DNA from: Sulfurimicrobium lacus
GTDB taxonomy: Bacteria > Pseudomonadota > Gammaproteobacteria > Burkholderiales > Sulfuricellaceae
Length of the DNA stretch: 64,000 bases
NCBI RefSeq assembly: GCF_011764585.1
Contig: NZ_AP022853.1
Location: forward strand, 541,501-605,500
Direction: 5' to 3'
Shown piece after piece: positions 3,488 through 60,314 of this stretch. A model generated the notes under the pieces. The model had not been told where the DNA came from. It did not search any database and saw only the letters and a program-made list of their open reading frames with translations. The stretch's first letter is position 1; the number at the start of each line of letters is the position of its first letter. Position numbers and translations under genes: made by a program.

Positions 3488-3520
3488 TTTTAATTTCGCG
3501 CTAGAGAGGACGACTAGATC

Positions 3521-4711
3521 ATGGCAAAAGGTAAGTTTGAGCGTACCAAACCGCACGTAAACGTGGGGACGATTGGCCACGTGGATCATGGCAAGACGAC
3601 TTTGACGGCAGCGATCACGACGATCCTGTCGAAGAAGTTTGGTGGTGAAGCCAAAGGCTACGACCAGATCGACAGCGCGCCGGAAGAAAAGGCACGCGGT
3701 ATCACCATCAATACCGCCCACGTTGAATACGAAACCGCCGCACGTCACTACGCGCACGTTGACTGCCCGGGCCACGCCGACTATGTGAAAAACATGATCA
3801 CTGGCGCCGCGCAAATGGACGGCGCCATCCTGGTCGTGTCCGCTGCCGACGGCCCCATGCCCCAGACCCGCGAACACATCCTGCTCGCCCGTCAGGTCGG
3901 CGTACCGTACATCATCGTCTACATGAACAAAGCCGACATGGTCGACGACCCCGAGTTGCTCGAACTGGTCGAAATGGAAGTGCGCGAACTGCTCTCCAAG
4001 TACGACTTCCCCGGCGACGACACCCCGATCATCATCGGCAGTGCCCTAAAAGCACTGGAAGGCGACCAAAGCGACATCGGCGAACCCTCCATCTTCAAAC
4101 TGGCCGACGCCCTCGACAGCTACATCCCCCAACCGGAACGCGCCATCGACGGCACCTTCCTCATGCCGGTGGAAGACGTATTCTCCATCTCCGGTCGCGG
4201 CACCGTGGTAACGGGTCGTATCGAACGCGGCATCGTCAAGGTTGGTGAAGAAGTTGAAATCGTCGGCATCAAGCCCACCATCAAGACCACCTGCACCGGC
4301 GTCGAAATGTTCCGCAAACTGCTCGACCAAGGTCAGGCAGGCGACAACGTCGGCGTGCTGCTGCGCGGCACCAAGCGTGAAGAAGTCGAACGCGGCCAAG
4401 TGTTGGCCAAGCCCGGCTCCATCACCCCGCACACCAAGTTCTCCGCCGAGATCTACGTGCTGAGCAAGGACGAAGGTGGTCGTCACACCCCGTTCTTCCA
4501 AGGCTACCGTCCTCAGTTCTACTTCCGTACCACAGACGTGACCGGCGCGATCGAGCTGCCTGCCGGCACCGAAATGGTGATGCCTGGCGACAACGTCTCC
4601 ATCAACGTGGCGCTGATTCAGCCGATCGCCATGGAAGAAGGCCTGCGCTTCGCGATTCGCGAAGGTGGTCGTACCGTCGGCGCTGGTGTGGTTGCCAAGG
4701 TAATCGAGTAA
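3521..4711 (+). CDS. tufB: Elongation factor Tu, copy 1
   Basis: EF-Tu, 396 aa, a GTPase that carries aminoacyl-tRNA to the ribosome. GTP-binding motifs are in order: GHVDHGKT near residue 18, DCPGHADY near 80, NKAD near 135; beta-barrel domains 2 and 3 follow. It lies directly after the tRNA genes. The protein is identical to the second copy at 20076-21266. I count only six base differences between the two genes, all silent, which points to continuing gene conversion. The start is ATG with AGAGG upstream. Confidence 0.98.
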
Positions 4712-20046: not shown

Positions 20047-20075
20047 CCGTTTATCGAGATTGAGAGGAAACTGAC

Positions 20076-21266
<1,191 letters not shown>

Positions 21267-48652: not shown

Positions 48653-48728
48653 GTGAGGCGAGAGGCGTGAGGGGTGAGGCGAGAAAGAAACCTGGCTCTT
48701 CGCCTCACCCCTACCCCCTCACCCCTTA
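48653..48728. repeat. Heptamer-phased inverted repeat, cbbQ-cbbO spacer
   Basis: Left arm 48653-48687: GTGAGGC, GAGAGGC, GTGAGGG, GTGAGGC, GAGAAAG. Right arm 48701-48728: CGCCTCA, CCCCTAC, CCCCTCA, CCCCTTA. The arms are complementary. It starts on the base after the cbbQ stop and ends next to the cbbO ribosome-binding site CGGAGG (48729-48734). Same design as the other two spacers but a different base sequence. Confidence 0.85.
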
Positions 48729-48738
48729 CGGAGGTTCC

Positions 48739-51111
48739 ATGAGCATCAATCTCGAAGACTACCAGGAACTGACCAGCTCGCTCTCCCCGGAGCTGCAGGA
48801 AAGCCTGCAGGCCGCGTGGCTGGAAGCGGGCAAGGTTTTCAGTGCGCGCGGCCTGGACAATTACCTCAAGGGTGCCGCGGCGCTGAAGAGCCTGGGCAAG
48901 GGCGACGAGCTGATCGCCACCTGGATCGACCACGCGCCGCTGGTGGCCAAGGAAATCGGCGAGGACGCCGTGCCGGACCTGGTGCAGACCGCGCTCTCCC
49001 TGGCCTCCAAGACCTCCGGCGCGGTGATCGAACTGGTACTCAGTACCGCGCCCACGGCGGCCAGCCGCCTCGGCGACGAGGTGCTGTTCCGCGCCTATCT
49101 GCAATTCCTGAACACGCTGCTGTCGCAGGCGCCGCGCGGCGTGCGCCCGATGCTGGAAAATCTGGAGACGCTGTTCAGCCAGCTCACTCTGGGCGGTTTG
49201 CGCCGCTGGGCGCTGTGGGGCGCGCACGCCCACCGTACCGATTACCCGGAACAGGCCAGTTACTTCAGCCTGCAATCCAGGGAATCCCAGGCCATGCTGC
49301 AGAAGGAGCGCAAGGGCACGCTGTTCGTCGACGTGCAGCGCCGCATCAACATGTATTTGCGTGCCCTGTGGGCGCGGGATTTCTTCATGAAACCGACTTC
49401 CGGAGACTTCGAGACGCGCGAAGGCTACCGGCCTTATGTGGAAGGCTATTTCATCCACCTGCCCGATGCCTATGATGATTTTTCTCTCCCCTCCCCCGCA
49501 AGCGGGGGAGGGGCTGGGGGAGAGGGTAACAAGCTGCCGGGACTGGAAATGTACCGCGCCGCGGCAGCGCACAGTGCCGCGCATATCGTTTACACCCGCG
49601 ACCCGATCTCGGCCGAGGCGCTCAATCCCTGGCAGATGGCGGTGATCAGCGTGATCGAGGACGCCCGCGTGGAAACCCTGGCGGTGAACAAGTTTCCCGG
49701 CCTGAAGAAGCTGTGGGTGCAGTTGCACGGCATCCGCGCGGAGCAGGGCAATACGGCTGGCGATTACCTCAACCGCATGGCGCGCGCCCTGCTGGATGAC
49801 AGCTACCAGGACGACGACCCGTGGATCGCGCAGGGCCGCGTGCTGTTCAGGCAGGCGGCGGCGCGCCTCGACAGCAATCAGGTTTCCTGGGATATCGGCG
49901 TGCAACTGGCGCACGAATTTATGGAGAAGCGCATTCCCTTCAACCCGCGCTCGGATGTGCTCACCGCCCCCTATCGCGACGACAACCGCTATTTCTGGGA
50001 ATTCGAGGAATTCGATTTCGAACAGGCCATGGCGGCGGGTTACGAAGCGCCCAGGCAGGTGCGCAAGCACGTCAGCCTGATGGAGCTCGCCAACGAAATC
50101 GAGGTCGAAACCGCCGGCGACGATGCGGAAGAAATCTGGGTGCTGGGTACCGAACTCTTTCCCTACGAGGACATGGGCAAGTCCTTCAACGAGCTGGAAG
50201 GCAGGGAACCGGTTTCCGAGCCCTACCATTACGCGGAGTGGGATTACCAGATCCAGCTCGAACGCCCGGCCTGGGCCACGGTGCTGGAGAAGCGTCCGAA
50301 GGGCGGCGATCTGCAGCTGATCGACGATATCGCCGCGCAGCACAAGCGCACTATCGGCCGCCTCAAATTCCTGCTCGATGCTCTGCAGCCCCAGGGCGTG
50401 ACGCGCATCCGCAAGCTCGAAGACGGCGACGAGGTGGACGTCAACGCCGCCATCCGCGCCATGATCGACATTCGCATGGGGCAGCAACCGGACCCGCGCA
50501 TCATGATGCGTTCGGTACGCAAGGTGCGCGACATTTCGGTGATGGTGCTGCTGGACCTGTCGGAGTCCACCAACGAGAAGGTGAGCGGGCAGGACTACAG
50601 CGTGCTCGACCTGCAGCGTCAGGCCACGGTGCTGCTGGCCGACGCCATCCACAAGATCGGCGATCCCTTCGCGATTCACGGTTTCTGCTCGGACGGGCGC
50701 CACAACGTCGAATACTTCCGTTACAAGGATTTCGACCAGCCCTACAGCGAATTGCCGAAGTCCCGCCTGGCGGGCATGAGCGGGCAGCTCTCGACGCGCA
50801 TGGGCGCGGCCATCCGCCACGCCGGGCACTACCTGAAACTGCAGAAATCGGCGAAAAAGCTGCTGCTGGTGATCACCGACGGCGAGCCGGCCGACATCGA
50901 TGTGCGCGACCCGCAGTACCTGCGTTACGATACCAAGAAAGCGGTGGAGGAGATGGCGCGTAGCGGCGTGACCACTTTCTGCATGTCGCTCGACCCGAAG
51001 GCGGATCAATACGTTTCCCGGATTTTCGGGGCCAGGAACTACATGGTCGTGGACCATGTAGAACGCTTGCCTGAAAAGCTGCCAGTTCTCTACGCCGGAT
51101 TAACGCGATGA
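48739..51111 (+). CDS. cbbO: RuBisCO activation protein CbbO (vWA protein)
   Basis: 790 aa adaptor that binds RuBisCO and couples it to CbbQ. The start MSINLEDYQELTSSLSPEL at 48739 has CGGAGG 4 bases upstream. The C-terminal von Willebrand A domain (~residues 595-780) carries the metal site DLSESTNE near residue 602 and ITDGEPAD near 713. Residues ~249-263 (SLPSPASGGGAGGEG) are encoded by an in-frame GC-rich palindromic repeat. Its last codons KLPVLYAGLTR are repeated, with different codons, just before orf100. Confidence 0.95.
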   Translation: MSINLEDYQELTSSLSPELQESLQAAWLEAGKVFSARGLDNYLKGAAALKSLGKGDELIATWIDHAPLVAKEIGEDAVPDLVQTALSLASKTSGAVIELVLSTAPTAASRLGDEVLFRAYLQFLNTLLSQAPRGVRPMLENLETLFSQLTLGGLRRWALWGAHAHRTDYPEQASYFSLQSRESQAMLQKERKGTLFVDVQRRINMYLRALWARDFFMKPTSGDFETREGYRPYVEGYFIHLPDAYDDFSLPSPASGGGAGGEGNKLPGLEMYRAAAAHSAAHIVYTRDPISAEALNPWQMAVISVIEDARVETLAVNKFPGLKKLWVQLHGIRAEQGNTAGDYLNRMARALLDDSYQDDDPWIAQGRVLFRQAAARLDSNQVSWDIGVQLAHEFMEKRIPFNPRSDVLTAPYRDDNRYFWEFEEFDFEQAMAAGYEAPRQVRKHVSLMELANEIEVETAGDDAEEIWVLGTELFPYEDMGKSFNELEGREPVSEPYHYAEWDYQIQLERPAWATVLEKRPKGGDLQLIDDIAAQHKRTIGRLKFLLDALQPQGVTRIRKLEDGDEVDVNAAIRAMIDIRMGQQPDPRIMMRSVRKVRDISVMVLLDLSESTNEKVSGQDYSVLDLQRQATVLLADAIHKIGDPFAIHGFCSDGRHNVEYFRYKDFDQPYSELPKSRLAGMSGQLSTRMGAAIRHAGHYLKLQKSAKKLLLVITDGEPADIDVRDPQYLRYDTKKAVEEMARSGVTTFCMSLDPKADQYVSRIFGARNYMVVDHVERLPEKLPVLYAGLTR
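49484..49526 (+). repeat. GC-rich palindromic repeat inside cbbO
   Basis: A perfect 12-bp stem CCCCTCCCCCGC (49488-49499), AA, GCGGGGGAGGGG (49502-49513), flanked by CTCT and by CTGGGGGAGAGGG. This CTCTCCCC...GGGGAGAGGG form is that of widespread intergenic REP-type repeats of proteobacteria. Here it lies in frame within coding sequence. Confidence 0.85.
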
Positions 51112-59053: not shown

Positions 59054-59326
59054 ATGAGTCACAAGCATAGCAGCCTGTTGCGCGCCATCTTTCATGACCC
59101 GGTCAGCGGCAACATCCACTGGCGCGAAGTCGAATCCCTGCTGCATCACCTGGGTGCCGACGTCATTCCCGCGCATGGCGCGCGCTTTCACGTGATGCTC
59201 AACGGCGCCGAGGAATTCCTGCACCATCCCCACCAAAGCAACGTGTGCGACAGGAACCTGATCAAGCAACTGCGCGAATACCTCGCCCGTGCCGGGGTCA
59301 CGCCGTCGAGTTACGAGTGCGACTAA
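59054..59326 (+). CDS. Orphan HicA-like protein
   Basis: 90 aa, MSHKHSSLLRAIFHDPVSGNIHWREVESLLHHLGADVIPAHGARFHVMLNG... It matches the pattern of short proteins annotated as HicA-family toxins (dsRBD-like fold), including the C-terminal RNLIKQLREYLARAGVTP helix. No HicB antitoxin gene is beside it, and the SxHH catalytic segment is altered (AHGARFHVML), so it may not be a toxin. GAGGAG lies 7 bases before the ATG. The TAA stop overlaps the first bases of repeat copy R1. Confidence 0.7.
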   Translation: MSHKHSSLLRAIFHDPVSGNIHWREVESLLHHLGADVIPAHGARFHVMLNGAEEFLHHPHQSNVCDRNLIKQLREYLARAGVTPSSYECD

Positions 59327-59487
59327 ATCCCCCTCGATCCCCCTTTTTCAAAGGGGGAAGACAAGCAGTCCCACTGCACTGCTTTTTGTTCGCCCTCATT
59401 CCCCGAGGAGGTGGTGCGTTATAGCAGTAAATGCTGAGGCGACAGCTGTTGTTCCCCCCTTTGAAAAAGGGGGGCTAGGGGGGATTT
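59325..59487. mobile_element. MITE-like inverted repeat, copy R1 (163 bp)
   Basis: Ends are inverted: AAATCCCCCTCGATCCCCC TTTTTCAAAGGGGG on the left and CCCCCCTTTGAAAAAGGGGGG CTAGGGGGGATTT on the right. The interior shares GTGCGTT, AAAT, GAGGCGAC and GTTGTT with R2, so the two are copies of one element (R1 is longer by ~56 bp on its left interior). No ORF inside. The right end supplies the last codons and TAG stop of the DUF559 gene; the left end touches the stop of the HicA-like gene. Confidence 0.8.
59363..59387 (+). terminator. Terminator-like hairpin inside R1
   Basis: AAGCAGT (59363-59369), 8-base loop, ACTGCTT (59378-59384), then TTT. It could end transcripts of the HicA-like gene. Not present in R2. 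Confidence 0.45.
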
Positions 59488-59837
59488 CCCTTCACAATCA
59501 TATCTATCACTTCCAGCACCGCATCCGTCTCCAATAGCACCTGCCGATTATCAAATCGCAATACGCGCAATCCTAACTCCGCCAGCGCGTCATCGCGCGC
59601 TTGGTCTTTGGCCTGATGTTCCTCTTCAAAATGTTGGCTACCGTCAAGCTCGATCACTAGTTTTGCAGCCGGGCAATAAAAATCCACAATGAATGCGAGC
59701 AACGGTTTTTGCCGGTAGAACTGCACGCCTTGTATTTGCTTGCGTCGGAGACGATGCCACAGAACTTGCTCGGCATCCGTCATGTTGGTTCTGAGCGCGC
59801 GCGAGTTTTCCTTGAGTTTTGGGTTGTAGCGTTCCAT
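59475..59837 (-). CDS. DUF559 (VSR-like) endonuclease-domain protein
   Basis: 120 aa. DUF559 proteins have the restriction-endonuclease-like fold of Vsr. Seen here: ALRTNMTDAEQVLWHRLRRKQIQGVQFYRQKPLL, then the putative catalytic strand FIVDFYCPAAKLVIELDGSQH (Asp and E-x-D-G), and ALAELGLRVLRFDNRQVL. The ATG at 59837 lies one base from repeat R2, whose GAGGGGG end is the only ribosome-binding site. The last codons (NPP and TAG) lie in repeat R1. Nuclease activity is inferred from fold, not shown. Confidence 0.85.
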   Translation of the reverse strand: MERYNPKLKENSRALRTNMTDAEQVLWHRLRRKQIQGVQFYRQKPLLAFIVDFYCPAAKLVIELDGSQHFEEEHQAKDQARDDALAELGLRVLRFDNRQVLLETDAVLEVIDMIVKGNPP

Positions 59838-59838
59838 T

Positions 59839-59945
59839 AAATCCCCCTCGATCCCCCTTTTTCAAAGGGGGAGGTCAGTGCGTTAAATACCGAGGCGACA
59901 CGCAGTTGTTTCCCCACTTTGAAAAAGGGGGGCCAGGGGGGATTT
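59839..59945. mobile_element. MITE-like inverted repeat, copy R2 (107 bp)
   Basis: Same inverted ends as R1: AAATCCCCCTCGATCCCCC...CAAAGGGGG on the left and TTTGAAAAAGGGGGG CCAGGGGGGATTT on the right, with GTGCGTTAAATACCGAGGCGAC inside. It fills the gap between the SUI1 stop (59952) and the DUF559 start (59837). Confidence 0.8.
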
Positions 59946-59951
59946 GCAAGC

Positions 59952-60314
59952 CTAGCCCCCCGCCCTTTTGACGACCCAGCCCTGCTTCTTGAGCGCCTCG
60001 ATCACGCGCTCGCAGTGATCGCCCTGGATTTCGATCACGCCGTCCTTCACCGTCCCGCCCGAGCCGCACGCCGTCTTGATCTGCTTGCCCAGTTGCGCGA
60101 GGGCCGGCGCGTCCAGCGCAAGGCCCTTGACCAGGGTGACGCCCTTGCCCTTGCGGCCCTTGGTCTCCCTGGAGACGCGCACGATGCCGTCGGACGCAGG
60201 GGTGGCCGTATTCTTGCTGCAGACGCACTCGGCAACGGGTTTGCGGCACGCCGGGCACATTCTGCCGTGCTCGGTGGAATAGACCAGCCCGCCGTTTGTT
60301 TTAGTATTTTTCAT
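59952..60314 (-). CDS. yciH: SUI1/YciH-type translation initiation factor homologue
   Basis: 120 aa. The N-terminal zinc-ribbon-like part CPACRKPVAECVC (residues ~20-33) is followed by the SUI1 domain (~residues 42-116; VRVSRETKGRKGKGVTLVKGL, TACGSGGTVKDGVIEIQGDH). E. coli YciH and archaeal/eukaryotic eIF1 help reject incorrect initiation; the bacterial role is not well settled. The stop is 6 bases from repeat R2. Confidence 0.88.
   Translation of the reverse strand: MKNTKTNGGLVYSTEHGRMCPACRKPVAECVCSKNTATPASDGIVRVSRETKGRKGKGVTLVKGLALDAPALAQLGKQIKTACGSGGTVKDGVIEIQGDHCERVIEALKKQGWVVKRAGG

Follow-up and report, generated by a model that had tools for sequence, protein, structure and literature searches.

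Repeats of the BoxC type have been known since the 1990s, and the accessible text of PMC4666352 names no enzyme for them. According to the same text, the E. coli motif forms a triplex in vitro, a result reported for that motif and not for the AAATCCCCC family treated here, and the authors of the survey of E. coli copies report having found no mobility genes near these (Holder et al. 2015, PMC4666352). The DUF559 protein family has been described separately. In the excerpts available, its E. coli member YcjD was assigned earlier to the PD-(D/E)XK superfamily, near Vsr (PMC1189080), and one genome paper places a DUF559 gene in the EDxHD homing family (PMC9403480). The parts of the literature at hand on YcjD and the N. 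gonorrhoeae protein NGO0050 yielded no experimental function and no link to repeats, and among the accessible open-access texts, a scope that largely leaves out subscription journals and preprints, none was found to connect these repeats with DUF559, YcjD or COG2852. Here, a DUF559 gene enclosed by three-block repeats is analyzed in a window of 64,000 nucleotides (the whole stretch of DNA under study) from Sulfurimicrobium lacus.

A DUF559 gene between two copies of one repeat

The sequence-only reading placed a single DUF559 gene between two copies, R1 and R2, of one repeat, and both points hold (Table 1). Each copy starts with AAATCCCCCTCGATCCCCCTTTTTCAAAGGGGGA and ends with TTTGAAAAAGGGGGGC(T/C)AGGGGGGATTT; each is a doublet running from a box AAATCCCCC through spacer, hairpin, core, hairpin and spacer to a box GGGGGATTT, with both boxes pointing outward. 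The two repeats are direct copies of a single element: their global alignment scores 134 direct and 74.5 inverted, and their cores align at 39.5 direct and 12 inverted, as against at most 25 in 500 core shuffles. Approximately 56 bp of the R1 core is absent from R2.

Table 1. Features of the DUF559 locus (positions in the window)
Feature	Position	Strand	Remarks
DUF559 gene	59475-59837	minus	120 aa; predicted PD-(D/E)XK, Vsr/EDxHD-like nuclease; PF04480 E 6e-36
Repeat element R1	59325-59487	no strand	163 bp; third boxes outward; contains the gene's stop codon
Repeat element R2	59839-59945	no strand	107 bp; direct copy of R1 with a shorter core
R1 triplex motif 1 (hairpin, spacer, third box)	59325-59358	minus	motif scan
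R1 triplex motif 2, third box toward gene	59454-59487	plus	motif scan
R2 triplex motif 1, third box toward gene	59839-59872	minus	motif scan
R2 triplex motif 2	59912-59945	plus	motif scan
GAGGGGG inside R2	59843-59849	minus	likely ribosome-binding sequence, function judged from sequence
R1 core word common with R2	59428-59444	plus	repeat listing and R1/R2 alignment
R2 core word common with R1	59884-59900	plus	repeat listing and R1/R2 alignment

The fit between gene and repeats is close to what had been proposed. The last codons and the TAG stop (59475-59477) do lie within R1. The putative ribosome-binding GAGGGGG is correctly placed in R2, with a different spacing: it is the end of R2 that lies one base before the ATG, and GAGGGGG lies 5 nt before it. 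The outer ends, said to touch the stop codons of both neighbors, do so only on the left, where R1 shares two bases with the TAA (59324-59326) that ends the upstream ORF; on the right, a gap of 6 bp separates R2 from the SUI1 stop codon (59952-59954).

When the 64-kb window is scanned with a loose form of the motif, 11 matches are returned. Because a G-rich third box is present in only five of them, the four at this locus and one at 49488-49526, the R1 and R2 motifs are not attributable to chance. The lone motif at 49488-49526, about 10 kb from the DUF559 gene, belongs to another family (CCCCTCCCCC hairpin, box GGGGGAGAGGG). Elsewhere in the window, positions 48653-48729 hold an imperfect 30-nt inverted repeat with GTGAGG words (80% complementary, 17-nt gap), and a 300-nt stretch is duplicated without mismatch at 3520-3819 and 20075-20374, 16.5 kb apart, and may represent duplicated tuf genes.

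The window protein scores 123.1 bits against PF04480 (DUF559), above the curated cut-off of 20.6. Pfam finds DUF559, MTES_1575 and DUF2726 in it, and no HUH/Y1 or other transposase domain. The AlphaFold2 model (pLDDT 88.6) has 3hrl and 3r3p as its nearest PDB folds, followed by PvuRts1I and Vsr (1cw0), and E23, D52, E63, D65, Q68 and H69 are invariant over 34 sequences. The protein is thus predicted, from model and profile, to be a PD-(D/E)XK nuclease of the Vsr/EDxHD-like kind. The sequence profile matches 3hrl (N. gonorrhoeae NGO0050) at E 4.7e-39 and 3r3p (I-Bth0305I) at E 2.9e-4, with a Foldseek E of 6.3e-4 for the latter; by sequence and fold, the EDxHD homing endonuclease I-Bth0305I is the closest solved functional relative. 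PADLOC matches were weak (DpdF 1.1e-9, mREase_II 2e-7, PDC-S69 0.0049) and were taken as shared nuclease fold. Several Toxoplasma mitoribosome proteins also give partial fold matches to the model (9i05, 9g6k).

Three-block architecture and its association with DUF559 genes

The motif was defined as a hairpin, a spacer and an 8-nt box mirroring the purine arm (7/8 match, A or T facing A), the spacer being at most 7 nt, or 8-32 nt with a stem of its own. In the motifs of the window, the box could align with the purine arm in antiparallel orientation (G on G, A or T on A). An intrastrand triplex of class II, with G.GC and T.AT or A.AT triads, follows this mirror rule, as given in the accessible text of PMC4666352. 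Judged by sequence, the DUF559-flanking repeats have the architecture of BoxC/PIT/intrastrand-triplex motifs. When 283 distinct flank hairpins were chosen blind to the box, the mirror fitted better than a direct repeat in 88 and worse in 29. At a score of at least 8 of 9, with T allowed on A, the ratio is 64 to 3; when T on A is disallowed (strict identity), the counts are 77 to 40 overall and 30 to 7 at the same score. A third box that directly repeats the arm was rejected as the poorer fit on these counts.

The three-block architecture is general, and the exact AAATCCCCC sequence, which the earlier reading had taken as the shared repeat, is just one of several families. These pair arm and box as AAAGGGGGG/GGGGGATTT, GGGAGAGGG/GGTGAGGG and GGGGGAAGG/GGATGGGGG; in a further family (loci such as L249 and L256), GGGAGAAGG is paired with GGATGAGGG across a spacer hairpin. 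Third box and hairpin arm vary together between families, as would be expected if selection acted on the geometry of a triplex or on a protein recognizing that geometry.

Loci were drawn from 100 relatives (56 with a match), 80 named GTDB loci and 299 phylum genomes (108 with a match). From 140 matches, 12 without full 300-bp flanks were dropped, and 40 further loci were hand-picked down the 299-genome match list, one with a cut flank being skipped. Weak matches, for example in proteins of 1,500-1,900 aa, were left out, and the window's own locus is uncounted. Under the final rule, a motif lies within 300 bp of the gene on at least one side at 162 of 168 loci and on both sides at 102 of 168 (relatives 30/30, named GTDB loci 70/70, first phylum loci 26/28, further loci 36/40); the six loci without a motif are L137, L140, L231, L255, L259 and L263. 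Control windows 900 bp away at the same loci contain one in 11/157 cases, and on both sides in 0/157. Beside Vsr genes of the same 100 relatives, the count is 0/25 (25 of 30 loci used, weak or incomplete ones being dropped).

The rule was fixed after loci had been inspected, and its spacer-hairpin extension was added after alphaproteobacterial misses, with the controls rerun under the final rule. The first rule (spacer at most 7 nt) gives 117/128 and, in the further loci, 21/40. A stricter G-rich rule gives 92/128 DUF559 loci against 5/118 controls and 0/28 Vsr genes, and shuffled flanks contain a motif in 7/128 under the loosest rule. The DUF559-repeat association is secure. The sequence-only reading had suggested that repeat plus PD-(D/E)XK nuclease is a small mobile cassette, in which the nuclease may move or copy the repeats or the repeats capture the gene, an idea to be abandoned if DUF559 genes elsewhere usually lacked repeats. 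The opposite is the case, and this supports repeat plus nuclease as a real unit, which is one part of that reading.

The placement of the motifs is also regular. The third box points toward the gene in 173 of the 200 nearest motifs, and a gene-facing motif was found for 168 of 182 DUF559 proteins. Motif pairs spanning the gene face inward in 84 of 110 cases, and among neighboring pairs beside it, 90 of 146 have the outward arrangement seen within R1 and R2. The DUF559 reading frame reaches into or beyond the downstream third box before its stop in 98 of 133 genes. The full layout, in which the gene lies between two outward doublets, was recognized in just 11 loci, the window locus included. 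Direct orientation of the two flanking elements is weak as a general rule, 7 of these 11 loci aligning better directly, 3 better inverted and 1 equally well. In N. gonorrhoeae (L188, 2504-3198), pairs of triplex motifs recur about every 280 bp downstream of the DUF559 gene, forming a tandem array.

Repeat families, nuclease lineages and possible movement

The S. lacus genome contains two DUF559 genes besides that of the window. One (L002) has CCTTCCCCTTGAAGGGGAAGG hairpins in the repeats on its two sides, one of which also has a CCATCCCCATCC box; the other (L001) lies in frame within YgiQ, between CCCTCTCCC-type repeats. The three loci have three repeat sequences and one architecture, and different families at the DUF559 genes of one genome were found in four other genomes whose flanks were read. 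A search with R1 finds the AAATCCCCC family at just two other places in the S. lacus genome. At L040 (639-673; 3459638-3459672 of that genome), a single AAATCCCCC motif sits just after the start codon of an ORF, in frame as read by eye.

Repeat sequence follows nuclease lineage. On the DUF559 tree, repeat class changes 42 times, against a mean of 93.7 and a minimum of 85 in 200 shuffles. Protein distance correlates with arm distance at 0.40 overall (500 permutations, maximum 0.10) and at r 0.49 over 1,598 cross-phylum pairs (1,000 permutations, maximum 0.10). All eight nearest relatives of the window protein, Chlorobiota and Thermodesulfobacteriota among them, have AAA-type repeats; for the second and third DUF559 proteins of the genome, 6/8 and just 4/8 nearest relatives share the repeat class.

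Physical linkage alone could yield such a co-phylogeny, and dispersed copies elsewhere in the genomes were therefore examined, in 25 AAA-type and 15 G-only-type genomes of our own choice among the named loci. AAA-type motifs (search model R2) occur in 25/25 genomes with an AAA-flanked DUF559 (2-150 matches, median 24, more than four in 23/25) and in 3/15 with a G-only-flanked one, one of the three having a further DUF559 amid AAA-type repeats. CCCTC-type motifs (search model R1) occur in 14/25 AAA-type and 15/15 G-only-type genomes. Dispersed copies thus mostly match the resident nuclease type. A renewed DUF559 search in 27 of these 40 genomes found at least two matches in 8 of 12 genomes with both repeat families (G392, G393, G395, G401, G409, G413, G414 and G422) and in 3 of 15 with one (G412, G418 and G420). 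Where the flanks of further copies were read, they were of the CCCTC type, as expected, in G413, G401, G395 and G393, and of other types, against expectation, in G392 and G409. Mismatches also occur: no matching DUF559 was found for the AAA-type motifs of G424 (one DUF559) and G422 (both read copies CCCTC-flanked), or for the CCCTC-type motifs of G398, G390 and G402.

In a scan of 299 genomes in which the best 23 candidates per genome were scored, CCCTC-type motifs are present in 59 of 80 genomes with a strong DUF559 (best E at most 1e-10) and in 26 of 219 without (Fisher p 2e-24 without phylogenetic correction; both draws of 299 genomes treated as identical). Some of these 26 have at least 23 repeat matches. 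Per genome, DUF559 matches number 1-10 and repeats up to at least 150, the latter in the AAA-type Lysobacter genome G401. A metagenome-assembled genome labelled Euryarchaeota (L065) has an AAA-type DUF559 and 35 matching motifs; misbinning is possible.

DUF559 also interrupts host genes in frame, namely those for asparagine synthase/AsnB (L025), a Type ISP protein (L026) and an MmeI-like protein (L033). At L021, it shares its frame with the second half of YgiQ, whose first half is found on a separate contig. Among matches in the relatives with E at most 1e-20, 13 of 63 lie in open frames of at least 400 aa, one of which, L023, is by eye no fusion. Eight congeneric ygiQ genes, whose proteins are 87-94% identical to the YgiQ of the S. 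lacus genome over the query, were compared at the linker. DUF559 and motifs are present in the S. lacus genome and G001, and motifs in open frame in G002, G005 and G006; in G003, a motif is visible by eye and missed by the rule, and G007 has none. Insertion differences between close relatives were seen in this linker only, and no exact target could be read from the empty G007 and its filled relatives. In G004 (L197), the linker carries an unrelated long palindrome of the GGTGCGTGGGACGCACC type where relatives carry triplex motifs; other repeat families therefore use the same site.

Inspection by eye of the window locus and of ygiQ revealed no target-site duplication, with no exact empty site for comparison. 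At the window locus, no clean empty site was found; SUI1 is present in five congeners and the S. lacus genome, and the three congeners read downstream of it (L044, L045 and L046) look different there. Plasmid or phage copies were considered as a source of recent insertions and are too few: tblastn with the window protein matches 41 of 72,556 plasmid and 10 of 50,697 phage records. TnpA-REP is likewise described as rare on plasmids and phages in the accessible text of PMC8266576.

In E. coli, the DUF559 gene is ycjD, located between sapF and fabI and annotated as DUF559. It is present in 3,362 of 5,426 complete E. coli genomes (at least 80% query coverage), laboratory K-12 derivatives included. 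It was reached via a DUF559 match in chromosome-sized records filed as plasmids; the PF04480 profile search of the control E. coli genome gave no match. In one strain (L186), a BoxC-type motif contains the ycjD stop. In a K-12-type sequence (L187), the adjacent motif is so degenerate that the rule misses it, with the next one about 170 bp further on. Motifs were found on the downstream side only, with none upstream in L186 or L187. In four genomes without ycjD that were opened, sapF is followed by efflux-pump genes, identified in the available text of PMC12817139 as the eef operon; this is therefore a replacement, and a clean empty site in E. coli was discarded.

Interpretation and comparison with known systems

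Taken together, the data make it probable that DUF559 and its repeats form a two-part selfish element, REPtron-like, with a nuclease specific for its cognate three-block repeats. The observed basis is the near-universal association in the samples, the tight geometry, the matching of lineage and family across phyla, the presence of the matching family in dispersed copies across the same genomes, and the in-frame insertion of gene and repeat into host genes. In the proposed mechanism, a low-copy chromosomal PD-(D/E)XK nuclease, bounded by its cognate repeats, would recognize hairpin and third box, the blocks probably forming an intrastrand triplex where the DNA is single-stranded. It would cut at or beside the folded repeat, probably when replication exposes single strands, and host repair would copy the repeat, and now and then the gene too, into new sites. 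Mobilization of the repeats by DUF559 is what we infer from sequence comparison, the mobility evidence being comparative, with no cleavage or movement observed. Against this reading stand the absence of a target-site duplication (by eye) and of a clean empty site, the CCCTC-type repeats in 26/219 genomes without a strong DUF559, and the five genomes (G424, G422, G398, G390 and G402) with repeats for which no matching DUF559 was found. The downstream-only motifs at ycjD, degenerate next to the gene in the K-12-type sequence, and the presence of the AAATCCCCC family at just two other places in the S. lacus genome also count against it.

The main rival is a homing endonuclease living in the repeats; a repair role and passive terminators fit less. 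If DUF559 were a free-standing homing endonuclease whose gene is copied into repeats that something else spread, its kinship with I-Bth0305I, the direct copies R1 and R2 around the gene, and the CCCTC-bearing genomes without strong DUF559 would all be expected. We nevertheless regard this as rather unlikely, since genomes have 1-10 DUF559 matches while repeat numbers reach at least 150, and the DUF559 genes of one genome, in S. lacus and four others, sit in different repeat families. The near-absence of the AAATCCCCC family elsewhere leaves no evident target pool, which argues against homing at the window locus.

A housekeeping repair nuclease for triplexes or hairpins, with the repeats as substrate or regulator and nothing mobile, would find a precedent in Vsr, a repair nuclease of similar fold (1cw0), and in the motif itself, which is reported to form a stable triplex in vitro and to mark unstable E. 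coli loci (accessible text of PMC4666352). It would predict neither repeat sequences that follow nuclease lineage, nor in-frame insertions into host genes, nor absence from most genomes (108/299 with a match), and is accordingly improbable. Least probable is that the repeats are ordinary terminators or mRNA-stability elements, common by happenstance and passive neighbors of the gene. Such repeats are presumed terminators in Enterobacter sp. 638, according to the portion of PMC2869309 available, but 30/30 DUF559 loci against 0/25 Vsr genes of the same 100 relatives, the frequent presence on both sides in a preferred orientation, and PIT elements described in the text at hand as without terminator activity (PMC4666352) all speak against this.

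The near-universal association and the tendency of related nucleases to have matching repeats suggest DUF559 as the missing enzyme that spreads triplex-type repeats. A dedicated nuclease partner, such as ycjD in laboratory K-12, would make the origin of BoxC-type repeats directly testable. If true, a common DUF family would also gain a function, and proline-rich stretches (PSPPTPLPAGEG and similar) within conserved proteins would be explained. There would, moreover, be a natural case of three-stranded DNA geometry maintained by selection, given that the third box changes with the hairpin arm between families. There is an even chance, in our estimate, that DUF559 and triplex repeats constitute a class of their own, separate from every known kind of mobile element, in which a minimal nuclease recognizes and spreads a three-stranded fold, with many private pairs from E. 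coli K-12 to Chloroflexota and an archaeal-labelled metagenome-assembled genome, BoxC included.

Among known systems, a classical insertion sequence or transposon differs by its transposase gene; here, a lone DUF559 without a transposase domain lies between repeats. NGO0050 (3hrl) and E. coli YcjD belong to the same family as the window protein. I-Bth0305I (PDB 3r3p) shares fold and sequence profile with DUF559, and differs by extra DNA-binding regions and a long target, as described in the accessible text of PMC3943268, whereas DUF559 has about 110 aa and lies between repeats; no Rfam intron was found in the 64-kb window. BoxC/PIT/TM repeats share the consecutive pyrimidine arm, purine arm and third box, a CCCTCTCCC-type sequence, and dispersal in many bacteria including E. 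coli. In the accessible text they are known as orphan repeats (PMC4666352), whereas the families described here accompany DUF559 genes and include one form whose spacer contains a hairpin.

The REPtron (TnpA-REP/RAYT with REP/REPIN) differs in its enzyme, an HUH tyrosine transposase as opposed to PD-(D/E)XK, and in its palindromes, which carry a tetranucleotide tag where the DUF559 repeats have a third box. Among the 168 nearest gene-facing motifs, GTAG occurs anywhere in 7 and CGTC/GACG in 12, so that neither tag characterizes them. The likeness lies in organization: a low-copy chromosomal gene flanked by palindromic repeats, housekeeping-like instead of plasmid-borne, with doublets and with cognate copies dispersed in the genome of the enzyme, as found for the AAA-type repeats in 25/25 genomes.
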